Source of the DNA: Candidatus Nanoarchaeia archaeon
Lineage (GTDB): Archaea > Nanobdellota > Nanobdellia > Woesearchaeales > JANQNE01
Direction: 5' to 3'
DNA length: 51,070 bases
Assembly: GCA_028279725.1 (NCBI GenBank)
Contig: JANQNE010000007.1
Coordinates: 163,406-214,475 of the forward strand
Within the stretch, counting starts at the first letter, position 1, and every line of letters begins with the position of its first letter. The notes beneath the pieces were generated by a model, which was given only the letters and a program-made list of their open reading frames with translations, ran no database searches and had not been told where the DNA came from. Positions 10,781-42,495 of the stretch are shown here, piece after piece. The translations under genes were made by a program, and so were the position numbers.

Positions 10781-11584
10781 TTATGTGCTCTTCATATCTT
10801 TCCATGCAAGGTTAAACATTCCGTCTAATGCCTTTGCAAAGAATGGTGTGTTTACCCAGATACCCATGTCATATGTAGGATGTACTTCGCTGTCATCCAA
10901 GACCATGAAAACTAGTTCTTTTCCGTCAACAACACAGAATCTTGCGCTGATCTTATCAACATTCTTCACTTCAGCAACTTTGCTCAATTCCTTCACTGCA
11001 TCTTTTGATTCTTTTGTTATTGGAGCAGCAACTCTGATCTTAACTCCTTTTTTCTTAAGCTTCTCGAATGTTGGCATCAGTCCTTCAACTTTTCTGATCA
11101 ATCCTTGTGCTGTTGTCATAAGTGTTACACTTTCTTCAGCATTTCTGATTGTCAGCTCAATGTGATTATATAAGTTATGTCTTCCCCTCAAGCTTCCTGA
11201 AAGATCTGCAGGCTCTATCAATTCCACACCCTGTGTGTGTAATGTATTAAGCTCACCGATAACATCAGTTCCTTTAAGATTCTCTAATCTTCTTACTTTC
11301 TCTTCAGCATCTGTTCTCATGTTTTTCTTAACTCTTTCAACAACTTCTGCTGGAGGTACTGCCATATACTTTATTGGCTTTCCTAGCTTCATAACTACAA
11401 ACCCTTTCTTCTCCAATGATTCAAGAACATCATAGCTTCTTGACCTTGGAACATTTGCAATATCACTCAACTCTCCTGCTGTTGAAACCCCTCTAGAAAG
11501 CAATGCTGTCCAAATCTTTACTTCATAAAGATTCAGCGAGAAATACCTTCTTAATTTGCTTAAAAATTCTTCTTTAACTATCAT
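10781..11584 (-). CDS. TrmB-family transcriptional regulator (copy 1)
   Basis: This is a predicted DNA-binding regulator. The N-terminal winged helix (about residues 1-70) includes LYEVKIWTALLSRGVSTAGE, the recognition helix ANVPRSRSYDVLESLEKKGF and a wing with KLGKPIKYMAVPP; a linker coiled coil follows, then a C-terminal phospholipase-D-like TrmB sensor domain (ESVTLMTTAQGLI, ARFCVVDGKELVFMVLDD, DMGIWVNTPFFAKA). I start at ATG 11584 because a GGGGGGATGG ribosome-binding region precedes it and because the paralogue at 41671-42495 begins at the same residue; a longer in-frame extension to 11647 is probably untranslated. Ligand and targets cannot be read from the sequence. Confidence 0.85.
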   Translation of the reverse strand: MIVKEEFLSKLRRYFSLNLYEVKIWTALLSRGVSTAGELSDIANVPRSRSYDVLESLEKKGFVVMKLGKPIKYMAVPPAEVVERVKKNMRTDAEEKVRRLENLKGTDVIGELNTLHTQGVELIEPADLSGSLRGRHNLYNHIELTIRNAEESVTLMTTAQGLIRKVEGLMPTFEKLKKKGVKIRVAAPITKESKDAVKELSKVAEVKNVDKISARFCVVDGKELVFMVLDDSEVHPTYDMGIWVNTPFFAKALDGMFNLAWKDMKST

Positions 11585-11780
11585 TAAACCATCCCCCCTC
11601 TTTTTTTTTGTAGACGCCGCGTTTTTACCCGCGACATGAACAAACAAATACTACTACTTAATATATGTTACGATTTTTTACCCCATGCCAGTACTTCCAG
11701 CATTATCAAACAATCATAACACATATCATATTACTATGTAGTGATTTATTTGATTCACTTCTAAAGAGAAATATAGCAAT

Positions 11781-15876: not shown

Positions 15877-16938
15877 TTAATAGTTCAACTTGTATCTTAA
15901 TATCGCAGCAATCCCGCTAAGGCCCCCTAATTTCTTTCCACCTTCATGGTCTGATGATATGATATGAACTTCACCTTTCATAGAATCGGTTTTTTTCATT
16001 ATCACTTCAATCTTTTCATATTTTCCTTCTTTCCTTGTCTTCTGGATAAGCTTATCAGAAACCAATAAGACTTCTATCGCCCCTGCTTCAGAAGCAGCAG
16101 TAACTTCTTTAATACCATAAGCAGCTAATCCTTCTTTAGAGATTTCAGCAAGTAATTTTTCTACAAGAGTTATTTCTTTGCTTATCCTGTCTTTCCTTAA
16201 AATCTCTCTAACCTCTCCTCTTCTCAATACTTCATTTATAGCATTCTCTCCTACAGATGAACATGTAGCTAATACTACCTTCTTCTTCAGGTCTTCATCA
16301 GTTATCTGCTTTTGCAGATCTTCCTTAAAGAAAGCAGGACTTGCCAACACAATATAGTCAAGTTTGTATCTTTTTGAATATTCAGTTGTAGTCTTTATTA
16401 TATCAGCATAAAATGATCCGCCTTTACTTGCTCTCTCTTCCTTTTTCTCTACTTCTCCTTTAAGACTGCTGATCATCTCATAGCCATATTTCTTTGACAA
16501 TGCAAAATATACTTCTTCTCTGTCAAAATTACATATCAATATCTTAGGGACTTTAGTCTCACTAGCCTCCTTCAGCACATTCAGCTGATACTTAAGCCAT
16601 TTCTCTTTGATTATCTTTATCTCACTTCCTTCTTCTAGATTAAATGTATGATGGCTTCCCCTAGGAACATCTTCAGGCCCTTCAACTACAATACCCGCAA
16701 CTCTCAAGACATTAGAATGTTTGGAAAACTCTACTTTCTCAACTTCAAGAGTCATAAAAACAGCTTTCTTGCTCACACTCCCTTTTTCCTCATCGCCACC
16801 TTTCTTTATCTTCCTGTAAGTCTTCCCAGAAATCTTGTCTTTAGTGTCTATTAAGCTGCTTAAATACCACAAATCATCCAGGTTTTCCAATTTAACCTTT
16901 ATTACGCCTTTTTTAGTATCAGAAAGCACTGTTTTCAT
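15877..16938 (-). CDS. pelA: Pelota/Dom34 mRNA-surveillance protein
   Basis: Pelota recognises stalled ribosomes with an empty or blocked A site and, with ABCE1, splits them. The 353 residues show the SM-like N-terminal domain (KVKLENLDDLWYLSSLI through GSHHTFNLEEG), the eRF1-like central domain (KILICNFDREEVYFALSKKYG, DYIVLASPAFFKEDL) and the C-terminal L7Ae-like domain (LAAYGIKEVTAASEAGAIE, VHIISSDHEGGKKLGGLSGI). As in Pelota, no GGQ tripeptide is present in the central domain. I start at ATG 16938 (MKTVLSDTKKG); upstream in-frame sequence is non-homologous and overlaps the promoter. The TATA palindrome at 16955-16970 would make this mRNA leaderless. Confidence 0.95.
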   Translation of the reverse strand: MKTVLSDTKKGVIKVKLENLDDLWYLSSLIDTKDKISGKTYRKIKKGGDEEKGSVSKKAVFMTLEVEKVEFSKHSNVLRVAGIVVEGPEDVPRGSHHTFNLEEGSEIKIIKEKWLKYQLNVLKEASETKVPKILICNFDREEVYFALSKKYGYEMISSLKGEVEKKEERASKGGSFYADIIKTTTEYSKRYKLDYIVLASPAFFKEDLQKQITDEDLKKKVVLATCSSVGENAINEVLRRGEVREILRKDRISKEITLVEKLLAEISKEGLAAYGIKEVTAASEAGAIEVLLVSDKLIQKTRKEGKYEKIEVIMKKTDSMKGEVHIISSDHEGGKKLGGLSGIAAILRYKLNY

Positions 16939-16954
16939 ACTATAAAAAGAAAAA

Positions 16955-16970
16955 CATTTATATATAAATG
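16955..16970. promoter_or_regulatory. Perfectly palindromic, probably bidirectional TATA box between pelA and the surface-protein cluster
   Basis: CATTTATATATAAATG is a perfect 16-base palindrome in the 67-base divergent gap. Leftward, the usual ~25-base spacing places initiation at the pelA ATG (16938), giving a leaderless message. Rightward, initiation would fall near 16988, giving a leader of about 18 bases with a GGTGAT ribosome-binding site (16997-17002) before ATG 17006. Confidence 0.6.
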
Positions 16971-17005
16971 TATTTATTTTTATTATAGTCGCAAGTGGTG
17001 ATAAA

Positions 17006-18238
17006 ATGATGAAAAAAAGAGGCCAGACAGGCTCTGGCACTGGAGCTGCTACATTAGTTGCTGTCATTACTTTATTGATTGTTCTATATATATTGTTCAT
17101 CCCTCCAGAAAGCAGGGAAGAGCTTCTTGGATTAAACGAGACAACAGATGATGATAGTTCAACAACCAGCGATGGAACTAAATTCAAACCATATAATAAG
17201 ACATTGACTATGGCTTGTGAAGGTATTCCTGGAAGAGTTGATTACCTGGCTCAAAAAGAAGTAGAGCATAACATTCCTGCAACCACTATCATGACTAAGA
17301 CTTCAGCAGCGATCATCAAAGAAGTCAGAAGCCTGTATGTTAAAGATTCATTATTTAGCGACTCTATGGACAATATAACCTTCAACATTGATGACATATC
17401 AAATACAAAAAATGTTTTGTTGAGCTTCTTGATCAAAGAACATAGCGGCAGGCTCATAATAACTCTTAATAACAGAGAAGTATACAACAAAGAAGTATTT
17501 AGTGAAAATATAGAGCCGATCATTCTTCCAAAAGAATATTTACAGACTGAAAATGTTCTGGAGTTTAAGACTTCAGGAATTGGTATGGTCTTCTGGAAGA
17601 CCCATGAATACTCGCTGGAAAATATCAAGATCACTGGAGATCTTACAAGTGTTGATGCTCAGGAAAGCAAGACTGTTTTCTTGGTTAGCTCTTCTGAAAA
17701 AGACAATTTAGACAAGGCAAAGATAAGGTTTGTGGCAGACAAATGTGATGAATCTGTACCTGGAAAGATATTTGTAACATTGAATGGATATACTATATAC
17801 TCAGGAATTCCTGACCTGGGAACACCAGTGACTTATGAGTTTGCTGCTGAAAGACTATTTGGTGGAGAGAACGAGATAAGATTTAGAGTAGATCAGGGAT
17901 GCTATTTGGTTGATCAGATAATTATTGACTCAGAGTTGAAAGAAGCATTCCAGCCTTTCTGTTCTTTTGAACTTACTGAAGAAGAATATGAAGACATTGC
18001 TGCTGGAAGGGAAGACATCAACTTAAGCTTAACTTTCGGAGCTGACTTGGATGTACAAGGGATCCAGAAAGTTAATGAAGGCAAGATATTTATCAATAAT
18101 AACGCAAGAAATTTCTACACAAGAGCTTTAGAAGAGAATTGGGTAATAAACTCTTATGTTGAAGAAGGTTATAATTCGATAAAAGTAGTTCCAAGAAACA
18201 AGATGTACATAAATAAACTGGAAGCAGAAATGTATTAG
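17006..18238 (+). CDS. Membrane-anchored beta-repeat surface protein (first gene of envelope cluster)
   Basis: Function unknown. The N-terminus is short and basic (KKRGQTGSG) followed by one hydrophobic segment (about residues 14-32), then a Thr/Ser/Asp-rich spacer (45-57). This resembles the anchor or pilin-like leader of many DPANN surface proteins; no cleavage can be proven. The ectodomain appears to contain three related beta-rich units around 148-192, 253-298 and 359-396, each with the pattern G-(K/R)-hydrophobic strand, TLNN/TLNG/INNN, an aromatic-rich strand, then E/Y-N-x-(I/L)-hydrophobic. GGTGAT at 16997-17002 is the ribosome-binding site; ATG 17009 is an alternative start. It is followed 54 bases later by the transglycosylase-like gene. 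Confidence 0.7.
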   Translation: MMKKRGQTGSGTGAATLVAVITLLIVLYILFIPPESREELLGLNETTDDDSSTTSDGTKFKPYNKTLTMACEGIPGRVDYLAQKEVEHNIPATTIMTKTSAAIIKEVRSLYVKDSLFSDSMDNITFNIDDISNTKNVLLSFLIKEHSGRLIITLNNREVYNKEVFSENIEPIILPKEYLQTENVLEFKTSGIGMVFWKTHEYSLENIKITGDLTSVDAQESKTVFLVSSSEKDNLDKAKIRFVADKCDESVPGKIFVTLNGYTIYSGIPDLGTPVTYEFAAERLFGGENEIRFRVDQGCYLVDQIIIDSELKEAFQPFCSFELTEEEYEDIAAGREDINLSLTFGADLDVQGIQKVNEGKIFINNNARNFYTRALEENWVINSYVEEGYNSIKVVPRNKMYINKLEAEMY

Positions 18239-18292: not shown

Positions 18293-20650
18293 ATGCCACT
18301 ACCAGCAATTTTAGCAGGAATTGGAAGAGTAGGATTAGCTGCTGGAAGGACAATTAGTACTGCCGCAGGCAGAGGAGTTGCTATGGCCAAAAGTGCAGCA
18401 ACCAAGATAAAGACGATGAATGATGCAAGAAAAGCAGCTAATGCTGCAAAAACCGCAGAATCAAGTGGTATGAGTACAGGAGCAAAAGTTGCTACAGCCG
18501 CTGGCGCAGGACTGATGGGTGGTGCCCTCATAGAAAAGATGAAGGGTGCTGGAAATACAGCAGTCGAAGGAGCAAAACATTTTGGAACACACTATCTGGT
18601 TGTCCTTCTTATCTATCACTTCATAAAAACATGGTGGTATGCAGACAGAAGCCTCCCCTTATATTTCTTGATAATCAGTGTCCTTATGGTATTATGGGTC
18701 GTAAATGCTGAAGGATATAGTGGAAAAAACGCATTACCATTGATAATTATCTTGCTTGCATTGGAGTATTTTGGCATAGCCAATATATTAGAGATGTTTG
18801 GTATCGGCTCACAAGGATGGGCAACAGCGATATATTGGCCCTGGTTATTCTATTTCGTAATAATCAACAAGATAATAAAAAAGGATTTTGGAGTCGCAGA
18901 TGGTGTAGTGATCATGATAACAATACTTTTTATTGCACAAGTGACCGGATTAGCTGAAAGATATGATCTCTTTGCAACACAAGGTTCTGATGAAAAAAAA
19001 GCTGCTGAAGAAAAAGCAGCAGAACTTGAAGAGGGCAAGACAGAATTCACGCGATGGGATAAGATAGGTTTCTGGTGGGATTGTGTGATGGATGGTAAAC
19101 TTTCTTCTAAAGCCAGAAACGATTGTATTGATAAAAAGATAAATCCCCCTAAAGAAGAGCAGAAGATATCTTCCCTAGTAGAAGAAGGATTAGAACCAAT
19201 GAGATTGGAAATTGTTGAAGATAAACTGATAATCTCCCTTAGTGCACAGGAATTTAATGGATTATTAACTTTCATAAGTCCTAGAGGGGATAAAGATGTT
19301 GATCTTGAATGTAGTTTATATGATATAAGGGCAAGATCAGGTATTGAAGTTGAAGGGGATAAAAAAACTTTTGAAGATGAGAGTTTGATATTCGCTGAAA
19401 AATTCCACTGTGAGCCAAAAACTAGCCTTGCTCAGGGAAGTTATATTTATCAGATTATAGCAAACGTAAAAGATATTGAAACGACTGTAGAGCTGGATAG
19501 TTTCTTTGTCGGTAAAAAAGAGTTGGATAGTTTAGAGAAAGAATATATGAGTGAACTTTTCAAGCAAGGATTAGATACAACCACAATCCTGGCGCAAGTT
19601 GAAAAAAAGAGAAAAGACTGGTATGACAATCTGGAAACATTACTCAAGAATGCTTATGGTGGAGATAAAGTAGCATCAAAATCTTCCCCAGACCTAAGTG
19701 AACTAGCACTATCGATAGGACCATCAACACTTAATGGCATAGAAGAAGGTGATGAATTGACCCTTACAATCGCAATGCAAAATACTGTACGTGATAGTAA
19801 GATAAGAGATGTCAAGGAACTGTCTATTAAATTGCCTAAAGGTGCCACAGTAAAAGATGAATGTAATGGAAAATTCAGCTCAAAAATATTAGAAGATGAA
19901 ACTGTCCAGCTTGATGCAACAGAATCTTTCCTGGATACTTTTAATTTTGGTTCTATAACATACACTAGTGTAGGTGCTAAGCCTCTGGCTTCCTGCAAAA
20001 TAATAATATCAAACTTAGCTGAGTTTCTGCCTGATGTAGATCATGTTGAACACAAGATCTTTGAAGGAGTTATAAAATATGACCAAGCTGTAAGGAAAAA
20101 CTTCAGCAAAAGGATAACTTCAAGCGAAGCTCCTGCCGACGCAACATCAGTTGATGTTCAAGTAGCTTCTGAAAGAAATTCTGCTCTTGCTGAAAAGATT
20201 AGATCTCATGCAAAAAATCATGGTGTTCCGGAAAATATTGCACTTGCAGTAGCGACAAAAGAAAGCGGAATAAAGCATTATGACAGCAGCGGAGGAGTTA
20301 TAACAAATGGCGCTGACTGGGGAGTCATGCAGGTCAACCAAAAAGCCCATGAAAGTGCAGGATGCTTTAGTGCATCCGCAGCAAAAAGTGGAGTCTGTAA
20401 CGTAAACTCATGCTCAGGTACATCTGTCCTGCTAAGCGAAGACTGCAATATTGAAGCAGGATTTATGATATTGAAGAATTGTTACAATCAGGGCACTTCT
20501 AACTATCCTGACGGAAGAGAATATAAATGCAATGGTAAAACCTATAAAGGATGGGATTATGCTTTAAGATGTTACAATGGATGGGGAGAATCTTCAACAG
20601 TCTGCAGCTTTGCAAGGAATTATGTTGAAGATGTAAATGCTTTGGCTTAA
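18293..20650 (+). CDS. Polytopic membrane protein with a C-terminal lytic-transglycosylase/lysozyme-like (SLT) domain
   Basis: Residues 1-95 are an Ala/Gly/Lys-rich segment; residues about 98-225 hold four or five membrane helices; 226-290 are charged with a Lys/Glu-rich helix; 290-620 are beta-rich and predicted extracytoplasmic (including LSIGPSTLNGIEEGDELTLT). Residues about 629-785 form an SLT-like domain: ENIALAVATKESG with candidate catalytic Glu657, the GVMQVN motif (677-682), and a C-terminal AGFMILKNCY helix. Eight Cys in this domain suggest disulfides outside the cell. The family cleaves peptidoglycan, which archaea lack, so the substrate is unknown. In-frame TGA at 18281 fixes ATG 18293. 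It overlaps nothing and is followed one base later by a lipoprotein gene. Confidence 0.78.
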   Translation: MPLPAILAGIGRVGLAAGRTISTAAGRGVAMAKSAATKIKTMNDARKAANAAKTAESSGMSTGAKVATAAGAGLMGGALIEKMKGAGNTAVEGAKHFGTHYLVVLLIYHFIKTWWYADRSLPLYFLIISVLMVLWVVNAEGYSGKNALPLIIILLALEYFGIANILEMFGIGSQGWATAIYWPWLFYFVIINKIIKKDFGVADGVVIMITILFIAQVTGLAERYDLFATQGSDEKKAAEEKAAELEEGKTEFTRWDKIGFWWDCVMDGKLSSKARNDCIDKKINPPKEEQKISSLVEEGLEPMRLEIVEDKLIISLSAQEFNGLLTFISPRGDKDVDLECSLYDIRARSGIEVEGDKKTFEDESLIFAEKFHCEPKTSLAQGSYIYQIIANVKDIETTVELDSFFVGKKELDSLEKEYMSELFKQGLDTTTILAQVEKKRKDWYDNLETLLKNAYGGDKVASKSSPDLSELALSIGPSTLNGIEEGDELTLTIAMQNTVRDSKIRDVKELSIKLPKGATVKDECNGKFSSKILEDETVQLDATESFLDTFNFGSITYTSVGAKPLASCKIIISNLAEFLPDVDHVEHKIFEGVIKYDQAVRKNFSKRITSSEAPADATSVDVQVASERNSALAEKIRSHAKNHGVPENIALAVATKESGIKHYDSSGGVITNGADWGVMQVNQKAHESAGCFSASAAKSGVCNVNSCSGTSVLLSEDCNIEAGFMILKNCYNQGTSNYPDGREYKCNGKTYKGWDYALRCYNGWGESSTVCSFARNYVEDVNALA

Positions 20651-20651
20651 A

Positions 20652-21677
20652 ATGAACAAAAAGATAATATTAATAACAACACTCATTCTCCTAATCATAT
20701 TCAGCTTCGGCTGTCAAAGAAAAAGTGACGGCCCAGGCCCTAGCGACAGAAAAGACCCTATAACTCCATCTGAGATGGATTATCATAAAGGAACAAAAGC
20801 GCTGACTATGAAATTTATTGAAAACCAGCCTCCTAATGAAGTATGGGAAGGTACTCCGTTCCAGATAGCGCTGGATATAAAGAATGAAGGTGCCACAGAT
20901 ATCGCTGGAGTTGATGAAGGGCTTCTATACATAAGCGGATTTAAGTATATAAATGTAAACAGAGAAAAATCATTCAGCTTAGAAGGTAAGGATCAGTTCA
21001 ACCCGGAAGGAGGTTTTGGTGTTGTAACTTTTCCTGCAGAAGCAGTTCAGATTGATGATAGAGACCAGACAGATTCTTTTGTAATTACAGCTTGTTATAA
21101 ATATAAGACAGAAGCTGGAGTTGATATCTGTATAAACCCAAATGTTCTTGATATTGCAAAGATAAAAGAAGGTGAATGCAAGCCTAATACTGTTTCTGCT
21201 TCTGGAGGGCAGGGTGCTCCTATAACAGTGACAAAGATAGAACAAGAATATATCCCCATAAAAATACCTGCACAGGCAGGAGATACAAGAGAGACAAAAG
21301 TGTTGTTTAAGATTCATATAGCAAATAGAGGAGATGGAAAAGTCGTTAGCTATGACGCTTATGAAAAGAAATGCAGACAGACTGGAGCAGGATTAGATGC
21401 TGAAAAAGAACTTAATGTAGTAAGAGTTAAAGATGTAAGATTCTCAGAATATGCTCTGGATACAGCGATCGGTGCAGAATATAGGATCGATTGTACAGGA
21501 TTTAAAGATCCATCAAAAAGAGAGATAAAGATTCCCATATCAAAAGATCTTGTTATGACCTGTTCAGCTACACTATATGGAGACAATGCATACATCTCCC
21601 CATTGACAGTTGAGCTGGAATACGGCTATAACCAATACCTCACAAAAGCAATTACAGTAAAGAATATTGGAACATAG
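20652..21677 (+). CDS. Predicted surface lipoprotein, paralogue 1 of 3
   Basis: Residues 1-21 form a signal peptide with a lipobox-like end (IFSFGC) so Cys21 may be lipidated. The mature part has two beta-sandwich-like halves: the first with LTMKFIENQPPNEVWEGTPF and a NEGATD turn like CARDB/adhesion modules, then a Cys pair (ACYKYKTEAGVDIC) and the landmark GGQGAPITVTKIEQ, and a second half ending in LEYGYNQYLTKAITVKNIGT. The same architecture recurs in the next two genes. I use ATG 20652, one base after the preceding stop; ATG 20637 inside the previous gene would spoil the signal peptide. Function unknown; likely works with the transglycosylase-like protein. Confidence 0.7.
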   Translation: MNKKIILITTLILLIIFSFGCQRKSDGPGPSDRKDPITPSEMDYHKGTKALTMKFIENQPPNEVWEGTPFQIALDIKNEGATDIAGVDEGLLYISGFKYINVNREKSFSLEGKDQFNPEGGFGVVTFPAEAVQIDDRDQTDSFVITACYKYKTEAGVDICINPNVLDIAKIKEGECKPNTVSASGGQGAPITVTKIEQEYIPIKIPAQAGDTRETKVLFKIHIANRGDGKVVSYDAYEKKCRQTGAGLDAEKELNVVRVKDVRFSEYALDTAIGAEYRIDCTGFKDPSKREIKIPISKDLVMTCSATLYGDNAYISPLTVELEYGYNQYLTKAITVKNIGT

Positions 21678-21714: not shown

Positions 21715-22689
21715 ATGAAGAAAAAATATTTTTCAGTCATTTTCACAATTCTTATAATAGCGATACTTGTATCTGGAGCTCGTTGTCCTGTTAACAGAGG
21801 CAATGTTGATGCTGAAAAAGAAGCTGAACAGGCTATGAAATATGGCACAGACATATATGAAGGGAATGATGGATTGGTTATTGAGTTTGTAAAAGATGTT
21901 CCTCCTAAAAGGGTCTATTCTGGAGATGCTATGACTATTGCTTTTGATATATATAATATGGGTGCAAAAAGTACAGAAGCAAATGATGCTTATCTATATC
22001 TAAGTGGCGCTGATCCAAATATACTAAAATTAAACTCACAAAAAATTGCACTTGATGCAATCCCTGGAAAAGGTGAAGTTCTTGGAGAAGGAGGATTCAC
22101 TACAGAAACATTCGAAACTTCAGGACCTGTAAATATTCCAACAGGAACTGATGTCTACAGGCCAAAACTTATCGGAACTGTCTGTTATAATTATGAGACA
22201 ACTGCCAGCCCAGTAGTTTGTATGGATCCAAATCCATTCGGAACATTTTCAGGAGACCGAGCTTGTGATATAAGGGATGTCTCAACTACAGGAGGGCAGG
22301 GTGCTCCTGTTGCTGTAACCAAGATAGAACAGCTGCCTATGAAAGGATCTACACAGCTAAAGATTTATGTAAAGAATGTCGGAAAAGGAAAAGTGATCCA
22401 TTCAGACAAGCTGCAGACATGTACGCAGGTTGGAGCTCAGGATTACAACTACATAAACAAGCTTGATTGGTATACTGTCACCATTGGAGGTACTGATCTG
22501 TCTGATTGTAAACCTGCATCTGTAAGGCTAACAAACAATGAAGGGATAATTATCTGTAAACATACGTTCTCTGATTCTAATATTCAGGCTTTCACAACAC
22601 CTGTAACTATTAAACTAGGTTACAGCTACATTGAATCCACTAACCCTTATGAAGTGGAAATAATGAATATCGAGCCTGTTGTTGGTTAA
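21715..22689 (+). CDS. Predicted secreted or lipid-anchored protein, paralogue 2 of 3
   Basis: A hydrophobic signal peptide (about residues 5-23) ends in VSGARC, an imperfect lipobox because Arg precedes Cys. The mature protein repeats the features of its neighbours: GLVIEFVKDVPPKRVYSGDA, a NMGAKS turn, LYLSGADPN, the Cys pair in CYNYETTASPVVC, the landmark GGQGAPVAVTKIEQ and a C-terminal IKLGYSYIESTNPYEVEIMN strand pair. It has 324 residues. Order and similarity imply tandem duplication. No enzyme motif is visible; the folds look like binding or structural beta-sandwiches. Confidence 0.7.
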   Translation: MKKKYFSVIFTILIIAILVSGARCPVNRGNVDAEKEAEQAMKYGTDIYEGNDGLVIEFVKDVPPKRVYSGDAMTIAFDIYNMGAKSTEANDAYLYLSGADPNILKLNSQKIALDAIPGKGEVLGEGGFTTETFETSGPVNIPTGTDVYRPKLIGTVCYNYETTASPVVCMDPNPFGTFSGDRACDIRDVSTTGGQGAPVAVTKIEQLPMKGSTQLKIYVKNVGKGKVIHSDKLQTCTQVGAQDYNYINKLDWYTVTIGGTDLSDCKPASVRLTNNEGIIICKHTFSDSNIQAFTTPVTIKLGYSYIESTNPYEVEIMNIEPVVG

Positions 22690-22758: not shown

Positions 22759-23757
22759 ATGAAAAAGAGCGTTGTTTTGATATCAATTCTTATTATTGGC
22801 ATTTTTCTGTCTGGTTGTGCTCCAAAAGAGACAGTTGAGAACGTAACACAGCAAACAGGAAAAGCATACATTGGTGGAAGCAAAGGCTTAGAGCTTTCTT
22901 TTGTTTCAAACGCACCGCCTGATGAAGTATATGCACTTGAAGAGAATCAAGAGACAAACCCAAATACATTTGATATTAGTGTAAGAGTAGCAAATGTCGG
23001 TGAAGAGGATGTCGCTGCAGAAGATATGATTGTAAAACTTACAGGAATCGATCCTGGATCTTTTGACAAAGTAGCAGATGATTTTAAAGAGACGATTCCG
23101 GTTGAATCTCTCGAAAAGACAAGGATGTCTGTTGGAGAAGTTATCCCAGGAACATATGACTTTGTAGACTTTACCAATCTTGCCTACAAATATGAGGTTG
23201 CTGGAGAATATCCTGCAGTTGTAAGAGCATCTGCTTGTTACAAATATAAGACATATGCAACTTCAAAGATCTGTGTACTGGAAGATTTCTTCGGAAGAGG
23301 AGGGGCTTCAACTCTTTGTAAAGCAAATGAAGCTAAATCTGTAGAAAATTCCGGAGCGCCTGTGCATATTGAAGCAGTACAGGAGCAGGTTTCGGGAAAA
23401 GATGGAATCTCCATTGCATTCACTGTAAAACAAGCTGGAGACAATAACGATAATATCTTTAAGGTGATTAGTAAAGACAGTGAAGATGCTTGTGATGGAA
23501 AGAAGACAGAGAATGTTAACAAAGTTGGAGTAAAAGTTATGCTTGGAAATGAAGAACTGGCTGATTGTAGCGGAGTTAATGATGAAGGAATTGCTTCATT
23601 AAGCCCATCAACAAACAGTGCAGAGATCAGATGTAGGAAAGTCTGGAGCGCTGCAGATAGCAGGATTGACTCAGAAGTTCCTCTGAAGATAGAGCTAAGC
23701 TATGATTACTCTCAATATGTTGACAAAGAGATTAAAGTCAAGCAAATCGGAACATAA
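22759..23757 (+). CDS. Predicted surface lipoprotein, paralogue 3 of 3
   Basis: Residues 1-20 form a signal peptide ending in a perfect lipobox (FLSGC, Cys20), so this is the clearest lipoprotein of the trio. The mature part has GLELSFVSNAPPDEVYALEE, a NVGEEDV turn, KLTGIDPGSF, the Cys pair in CYKYKTYATSKIC, a shortened landmark NSGAPVHIEAVQEQ and the C-terminal IELSYDYSQYVDKEIKVKQI strand pair, whose ending is close to paralogue 1. It has 332 residues. GGAGG at 22747-22751 supports the ATG. The downstream T-rich stretch (23764-23790) is a plausible archaeal terminator for the cluster. Confidence 0.72.
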   Translation: MKKSVVLISILIIGIFLSGCAPKETVENVTQQTGKAYIGGSKGLELSFVSNAPPDEVYALEENQETNPNTFDISVRVANVGEEDVAAEDMIVKLTGIDPGSFDKVADDFKETIPVESLEKTRMSVGEVIPGTYDFVDFTNLAYKYEVAGEYPAVVRASACYKYKTYATSKICVLEDFFGRGGASTLCKANEAKSVENSGAPVHIEAVQEQVSGKDGISIAFTVKQAGDNNDNIFKVISKDSEDACDGKKTENVNKVGVKVMLGNEELADCSGVNDEGIASLSPSTNSAEIRCRKVWSAADSRIDSEVPLKIELSYDYSQYVDKEIKVKQIGT

Positions 23758-24525: not shown

Positions 24526-25485
24526 TCACTCCTTTTTTTGTGCTAATGTAAACTGACTTAATAAAGCTTCTAATTGTATAAACTCATCACTTCCTTCAAC
24601 CATCCTAAACTCTATATCTCCACATTTATTGATCAGCTCAACCTTAGATCTGCCATCAATATTAAGATCCCATACTTCCTTCTGTATCTGCTTGACAACA
24701 TCCAGCCCGCTTAATCCATAATTAAGCATGATATCTAATAATTTATTTCTTGCATCTAAAAAGCTTCCTTTAATAGCAAGCTCCAAAGCCTCCTTCAACT
24801 CTTTAGGCCTAGCAACTGAAGCCATAGAAAATATAGTCTCCTCTGTTATATTCTTATTTATAGCAGCACTGCTCTGGAGTATATTCTCAGCCTTTCTGCA
24901 GTCTCCTTCACTGATCTCATAAACAGCATCTGCAACCTTCTTATCTATCTTAAGCCCTTCATCCTTGGCTATCTTATCGACAATAACTTCAATATCTTTC
25001 TTCTCAAGCGGTCTGAATCTGAACACAGCGCATCTTGATTGGATTGGATCAATGATCTTAGAAGAATAATTGCATGACAACACAAACCTGCATGTCTGTG
25101 TATAGTTCTCCATAGTTCTTCTTAATGCCTGCTGAGCCTCCTTTGTCAAAGCATCACACTCATCTAGGTATATTATCTTAAAAGGAACATCTCCAATAGC
25201 CCTTGTCCTTGCAAAATCTTTAACTTTGTTCCTTATTATATCGATCCCTCTTTCATCAGAAGCATTTAACTCTAAGAAATTACTTTTCCATTCATCTCCA
25301 AACAATCTCCTTGCAACCACTAGAGCAAGTGTTGTCTTCCCTACGCCAGCTGGACCTGAAAACAGTAGATGGGGCATATTCTTCTGCTCAACAAAAGCCT
25401 GCACTCTGTCAACTACATGCTTCTGTCCTTTGACCTCAGAAAAGGTCTGCGGCCTGTATTTTTCGATCCAGATTGCCTCACTCAT
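24526..25485 (-). CDS. rfcS: Replication factor C small subunit (clamp loader)
   Basis: RFC-S is the AAA+ ATPase that, with RFC-L, loads PCNA on primed DNA. The 319 residues begin with the RFC box (WIEKYRPQTFSEVKGQ), then Walker A GPAGVGKTT (44-52), Walker B LDECDAL (107-113), the arginine-finger SRC motif (150-152) and the C-terminal collar helices. No intein is present, unlike many archaeal rfcS genes. GGTGTTGAA precedes the ATG. The large subunit is not in the window. The coiled-coil gene follows in the same operon. Confidence 0.96.
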   Translation of the reverse strand: MSEAIWIEKYRPQTFSEVKGQKHVVDRVQAFVEQKNMPHLLFSGPAGVGKTTLALVVARRLFGDEWKSNFLELNASDERGIDIIRNKVKDFARTRAIGDVPFKIIYLDECDALTKEAQQALRRTMENYTQTCRFVLSCNYSSKIIDPIQSRCAVFRFRPLEKKDIEVIVDKIAKDEGLKIDKKVADAVYEISEGDCRKAENILQSSAAINKNITEETIFSMASVARPKELKEALELAIKGSFLDARNKLLDIMLNYGLSGLDVVKQIQKEVWDLNIDGRSKVELINKCGDIEFRMVEGSDEFIQLEALLSQFTLAQKKE

Positions 25486-41670: not shown

Positions 41671-42495
41671 CTAAGAAGCTTTGTTTATGTCAGACTTCTT
41701 AAGACCTTTCCACTTTGAGTCAAACAAATTTTCTAGTGCATTTGCAAAAAACATTGTATTGACCCAGATACCAACATCATATGTTGGGTGAACATCTTTA
41801 TCATCCATAAGCATGAATGTAAGCTCTTTTCCGTCAACAAGACAGAACCTTGCATTCACTTCTTTCTCTTCGATGTGCCTTATCTCTGCATATTCTCCAA
41901 GTTCTTTTGCAGCTTCTTTGCTCTCCTTAGTTACCGGAGCTGCAATCTTTATCTTAACTCCCTTCTTAGCAAGCTTTGAGAATACTGACTTCATAAGTTC
42001 AGCTTTTCTTGCCAATCCTTGAGCTGTAGTCATCATTGTAACAGTTTTTTCTGCTCCTTTCAAAGCGCTTTCTAAGTGGTTGTATAGGTTATTTCTTCCC
42101 TTTATGCTTCCGCTTAGATCTGTAGGTTCGACTAGCTCTACTCCTTGGTTATGCAATAAGTTTAGTTCATCAAGAACATCGCTTGATTTTAATGATTTTA
42201 AAGTGTTTAATTTTGATTCGCTATCATCCAATATTCTCTTCTTTACTCTCTCAACAACCTCTTCTGGAGGAACCGCAATATACTTTATTGGCTTTCCTAA
42301 TTTCATTATAATGAATCCTTTTTTCTCAAGTGATTCTAGAACATCATAACTTCTTGATCTTGGTACGTTTGCAATATCGCTTAATTCCCCTGCTGTTGAA
42401 ATTCCACGAGATAGCAATGCTGTCCATAATTTACTTTCGTATGTATTAAGGCCGAAATCTTTTAGTTTGCTTAAAAATTCTTTTTGGACTATCAT
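41671..42495 (-). CDS. TrmB-family transcriptional regulator (copy 2)
   Basis: This is a close paralogue of the product of 10781-11584. The winged helix is nearly identical in the recognition region (AELSDIANVPRSRSYDVLES) and KLGKPIKYIAVPP; the C-terminal PLD-like TrmB domain matches in TVTMMTTAQGLARKA, KEVNARFCLVDGKELTFMLM and DVGIWVNTMFFANALENLF. The linker and parts of the sensor domain differ more, so the two may bind the same DNA but sense different ligands. GGAGCTGAT, one mismatch from the ideal, is the ribosome-binding site. It ends in a unique short polar tail. Confidence 0.86.
   Translation of the reverse strand: MIVQKEFLSKLKDFGLNTYESKLWTALLSRGISTAGELSDIANVPRSRSYDVLESLEKKGFIIMKLGKPIKYIAVPPEEVVERVKKRILDDSESKLNTLKSLKSSDVLDELNLLHNQGVELVEPTDLSGSIKGRNNLYNHLESALKGAEKTVTMMTTAQGLARKAELMKSVFSKLAKKGVKIKIAAPVTKESKEAAKELGEYAEIRHIEEKEVNARFCLVDGKELTFMLMDDKDVHPTYDVGIWVNTMFFANALENLFDSKWKGLKKSDINKAS

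Follow-up and report, generated by a model that had tools for sequence, protein, structure and literature searches.

Gene B, a membrane protein of the Woesearchaeal order, has kept its core while its C-terminal head has been swapped among unrelated peptidoglycan-cutting domains, non-enzymatic domains or none. The copy described here is a single open reading frame for 785 residues (18293..20650, + strand) in the window, a stretch of 51,070 nucleotides from a Candidatus Nanoarchaeia archaeon, and encodes a polytopic membrane protein with an ectodomain and an SLT head. It lies within a block of genes that is syntenic across the order. Taken as a whole, these data are best explained, with rather better than even confidence, by an outward-facing, tethered tool that would open the wall of a contacted bacterium locally.

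The SLT/goose-lysozyme-like (GH23) head comprises residues 629-785 (20177..20647, + strand) and was recognised by profiles and Foldseek. The call is marginal by Pfam alone: SLT (PF01464) matched residues 636-733 of the full protein only weakly, its 18.1 bits falling short of the cut-off (21.3), and in a scan of the whole 1.42-Mb genome, where this head was the only Pfam SLT match, it scored 21.5 bits, barely above that cut-off. It becomes secure with profiles of relatives, most of whose heads clear the Pfam cut-off easily (up to 64.5 bits). A profile built from 11 heads of other genomes, with the window excluded, recovered the window head at E=1.8e-22; against the same profile the isolated head scored 77.5 bits, compared with 9.7 for the best of 2000 shuffles. 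Among solved structures, a profile built from seven heads, that of the window among them, led to MltC (5.5e-5), Slt70 and EtgA. The leading Foldseek matches of an AlphaFold model of the head alone (pLDDT 67.8, pTM 0.71) were nearly all MltC, g-type lysozyme, Slt, MltF and MltE, with MltC and g-type lysozyme at the top (probability up to 1.00, TM ~0.55, E-values only 0.03 or worse).

The motifs of the head agree with the fold. Both G-x-M-Q and (A)-Y-N-G of GH23 are present, as GVMQ and CYNG, and Glu657 (codon 20261..20263, + strand), the predicted catalytic acid, aligns with the catalytic Glu. This residue is kept in 20 of the 22 different SLT heads; the two without it, L058 and L102, have also lost MQ. 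Eight Cys span residues 691-771. The last ~155 residues of gene B are thus confirmed as an SLT/goose-lysozyme (GH23) domain. A preliminary description of the reading frame had proposed this pattern, including the eight Cys, and the proposal is borne out: profiles and fold search lead to lytic transglycosylases and g-type lysozymes rather than to an unrelated fold, and Glu657, which it had singled out for a conservation check, is not lost. The head may be called SLT-type, but the choice between lytic transglycosylase and muramidase chemistry is not decidable from sequence; the SLT domain of PrgK, for example, turned out to be a muramidase (PMC11323569).

The membrane region of gene B (residues ~100-219; 18590..18949, + strand) contains four strong predicted helices and a weaker one at about residues 100-113, in line with the four or five noted earlier. 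The N-terminus of the protein is K/R-rich. The charge pattern favours an N-in, C-out orientation, and the head is accordingly predicted to lie outside the cell, as the preliminary description had assumed. Between membrane and head is a conserved ectodomain (residues ~300-610; 19190..20122, + strand) of two beta domains with helices between them, matching the beta-rich part described before, in which C340, C373, C524 and C568 are invariant across 24 homologues. The AlphaFold model of full-length gene B is poor (pLDDT 58), and a fold search with it against the PDB gave nothing at E<=0.001, the best matches being generic adhesin/Ig-like beta domains; this model and search thus suggest no function for the core. 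The sole PDB match of the gene B protein alone in phmmer was an antibody fragment. A Pfam match of the membrane part to O-antigen ligase was rejected (15.6 bits against a cut-off of 31, in one of 24 members). Pfam detected no wall-binding or peptidoglycan-binding domain in the gene B protein or in the 24 homologues scanned.

The block around gene B reads pelota (divergent), gene A (signal-anchored), gene B, three lipoproteins and rfcS. The genes at its two edges in the window, annotated from sequence, are a divergent pelota-like gene (15877..17187, - strand; true start probably near 16938) and a convergent gene for the replication factor C small subunit (24526..25485, - strand). Gene A, the first gene of the block (17006..18238, + strand), encodes a signal-anchored protein of 410 residues with a single membrane helix at residues 14-32 and a beta-rich extracellular part. 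Gene B is followed by lipoprotein 1 (20637..21677, + strand; lipobox SFGC), lipoprotein 2 (21715..22689, + strand; a weak CARDB match below cut-off) and lipoprotein 3 (22759..23757, + strand; lipobox LSGC). A gene A profile matched 275 of the 292 Woesearchaeal-order genomes and roughly half of those sampled from other orders of the class, the phylum sample listing no genomes outside the class. After removal of duplicates between collections, 126 fetched loci were available. Within the order, gene A is followed by a gene B homologue in 98 of the 101 loci with room for it, and pelota is divergent upstream of gene A in 93 of 103 loci; three or more lipoproteins were detected in 62 of 77 loci, and rfcS fell inside the retrieved sequence in 51 of 77.

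Some variants and neighbouring genes were seen in passing. In L008 (8480-11038), the block-adjacent RFC small subunit is 852 residues long, apparently with an intein, as read from its translation. Several genomes (G038, G110, G013, G054, G295 and others) have a longer gene A frame of 560-600 residues, whose profile match is confined to the first ~320 positions; each such genome has two or three matches. The window also encodes, judging from translations, two closely similar TrmB-like transcription regulators ~30 kb apart (10781-11647 and 41671-42495).

The exchange of heads is visible once gene B copies are compared. In a first search of 60 relatives, G009 and G006 carried SLT on the scaffold; G042 and G048 carried an M23 peptidase there. 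The gene B core terminates at a conserved motif, after which 0 to 656 residues of tail follow. According to Pfam, the tail is SLT in many copies, M23 in L009, L011 and L168, GH73 glucosaminidase in L047 and L093 (and, by a local profile, in L158 and L162), and M15 carboxypeptidase in L171; NlpC/P60 is located inside the ectodomain in L097 and beside an SLT in L173. Searches of the fetched neighbourhoods for further cutting domains of the four local profiles found none. A recognised peptidoglycan-cutting head is present in 31 of the 93 complete gene B copies of the order, no tail at all in 37 (~40%), and other tails in 25 (fn3-, PKD-, crystallin- or Ig-like, two possibly enzyme-like in L133 and L078, or unassigned), fractions that are not unbiased estimates because the sample was picked by hand, closest relatives first. 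Elsewhere in the class, 15 of 17 gene B copies have no tail. Given so many tailless copies within and outside the order, the core must act without an enzyme too.

Mapped on a gene A tree, a quick maximum-likelihood tree with many weak deep forks, the head labels need 31 changes, and the mere presence or absence of a cutting head needs 18. The exchange can also be followed between close relatives. In genus g103, L047 carries GH73 and L048 SLT; their gene A proteins are 77% identical and their gene B cores 54%, whereas the tails do not align with each other. Two further observations concern the tails. Those of L085, L113, L164 and L168 share an unassigned domain, without a Pfam match, that contains a D-x-[DN]-x-[DN] loop and may, from its sequence, be a degenerate, calcium-binding lysozyme-like domain. 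In G006, a second, single-helix protein with an SLT head is encoded beside pilin-like genes (L012, 8029-9183); this head is 64% identical over 186 residues to that of the gene B protein of the same genome, so that the same head occurs on another scaffold.

The host is archaeal. The genome (1.42 Mb, 96% complete) is Woesearchaeotal, the relatives of the window are mostly named Woesearchaeota, and translations of the window reveal archaeal genes for ribosomal protein, SecY, PolD, RFC and Orc1; the DPANN-like cell of the preliminary description is therefore supported. A mis-binned bacterial gene was considered and rejected, since the head is fused to an order-conserved core on a contig with archaeal genes. 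A tblastn search of 50,697 phage records for an origin of the head returned zero matches. Genome searches found neither a Mur_ligase-domain protein nor a penicillin-binding transpeptidase gene in the window's genome, and the wall on which the head would act is thus probably foreign. SLT, GH73, M23, NlpC/P60 and M15 are unrelated and cut different bonds, but their common usual substrate is bacterial peptidoglycan. That the target is the wall of another cell, one of several options raised before, is supported both by the missing genes and by the four other unrelated peptidoglycan-cutting families that take the place of SLT. Two of the other options, a pseudo-wall or a relic used for binding, are less likely for the window copy, in which E657 and the motifs are intact and whose head is replaced by peptidases in relatives.

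Put together, gene A, gene B and the three lipoproteins would form a Woesearchaeal cell-surface complex, with gene B as the subunit that bears the tool. The SLT-type domain, predicted to cleave glycan strands, would be held outside the archaeal cell by the membrane domain and beta ectodomain of gene B. When the archaeon touches a bacterium, the head would cleave the glycan strands of that bacterium locally, and the complex could then attach to the bacterial wall or reach through it. As partners change and bacterial walls differ, the head would be repeatedly swapped or lost, with the membrane complex staying in place. The outcome of wall opening may be attachment, feeding, killing, predation, scavenging or DNA exchange, among which the data do not decide. 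A broader and more tentative proposal, to which we give slightly less than even weight, is that the complex is an order-wide Woesearchaeotal surface structure with an interchangeable head, the type or absence of which records the bacterial or non-bacterial partner of each lineage. If this is true, the head type found in a genome could reveal host range.

Woesearchaeota are among the largest uncultivated archaeal groups, and little is known of their partners. Exchangeable bacterial-wall enzymes on a conserved surface complex would argue that bacterial walls are breached by many of these archaea. Head type would then be a testable predictor, readable from genomes, of which lineages do so and of the type of wall they face. 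The heads also offer a ready set of archaeal candidate wall enzymes on one scaffold for antibacterial tests.

Other readings of the same data differ mainly in what the head does. It could be a binding module that grips the glycans of bacterial walls without cutting, in a lectin-like manner, which would make the protein an adhesin. Several heads are indeed degenerate: L058 and L102 have lost the Glu and MQ, the first metal motif is gone from the M23 domain of L009, and the Cys from the NlpC/P60 domain of L173. Many of the other tails are, moreover, Ig-, fn3-, PKD- or crystallin-like, as in adhesins. However, these cases are outnumbered by SLT heads with an intact Glu, the window head retains E657 and all motifs, and inspection found intact active sites in most of the alternative heads (two of three M23, all four GH73, the NlpC/P60 of L097 and the M15 head); a head that only binds is considered unlikely. 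Action on a surface glycan of the archaeon itself or on methanogen pseudomurein is highly improbable. SLT-like enzymes with other glycan substrates exist, and the cellulase CtCel124 is among the lower Foldseek matches, but the window's genome has no Mur_ligase-domain protein, and with M23, NlpC/P60 and M15 peptidases replacing the head, peptidoglycan is the only substrate common to all.

If the heads do cut bacterial walls, the cutting could still serve other ends than contact with a living partner. The block might be a channel for DNA or protein transfer, with the head as its wall-opening enzyme, by the logic of PrgK and the VirB1-like proteins of type IV secretion, in which a membrane-anchored protein likewise carries external SLT and M23 domains; PrgK of pCF10 even combines LytM, SLT and CHAP, with a LytM that is degenerate as in L009 (PMC11323569). 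Against such a channel, no match to a VirB4-type AAA_10 ATPase was found in the genome, inspection of the block revealed no ATPase or relaxase, and Pfam scans of 24 homologues did not connect the core with VirB6/TrbL; the channel is regarded as rather improbable. Scavenging is given similarly little credence: the enzymes would digest peptidoglycan of dead cells for sugars and amino acids and attack no living partner, as peptidoglycan scavenging has been proposed for Pacearchaeota (PMC11537232), but a single tethered enzyme on a cell-surface block fits contact better than nutrient release. Local opening of the wall of a contacted bacterium is the preferred reading.

SLT proteins in Woese- and Pacearchaeota are already known, and bacterial partners have been suggested for these archaea (Castelle et al., 2021, PMC8204110; Vigneron et al., 2022, PMC9723730; likewise PMC10936187). 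The available portions of these papers describe the same organisms, an extracellular SLT/GH23 domain fused to large parts and a proposed bacterial-wall target, but treat the SLT domain only, with neither the block nor the exchange with GH73, M23, NlpC/P60 and M15; the protein cluster fam00969 (Castelle et al., 2021, PMC8204110) can be compared with gene B by its description only. At least one SLT-domain open reading frame occurs in 103 of 182 Woesearchaeal genomes of at least 90% completeness, mostly outside gene B and the block, with up to six matches per genome and lengths of up to 2239 residues. Although the preliminary description had found it striking, the domain is therefore not so by itself; the unusual part, invisible from the window alone, is the set of exchangeable heads on an order-wide block. 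In a literature search of one open-access library, neither the syntenic block nor the head exchange turned up, and this setting appears new.

Among characterised enzymes, E. coli MltC, Slt70 and goose-type lysozyme (GH23) share fold and catalytic motifs with the gene B head, but the latter has eight Cys, long insertions and an archaeal membrane scaffold. Archaeal peptidoglycan hydrolases that kill bacteria are known from Halogranum, namely Woldo and Danwoldo (M23; GH73), for which replacement of catalytic domains has been inferred too (PMC12352652). These are secreted, contain wall-binding domains and are patchily distributed, whereas the gene B scaffold is membrane-anchored and near-universal in its order, with only the head being patchy; by Pfam, gene B lacks the combination of catalytic and known wall-binding domain that defines the Halogranum group (PMC12352652). 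The closest functional analogue is PrgK of type IV secretion. Gene B resembles PrgK/TraG and VirB1-like proteins in having, by predicted topology, a membrane anchor with an external SLT, in the use of M23/CHAP-type domains and in the occurrence of one degenerate LytM (PMC11323569). It differs in being archaeal, with no secretion ATPase found and with a polytopic anchor plus beta ectodomain, and in that different species mostly carry different heads, rather than one protein having several in tandem.
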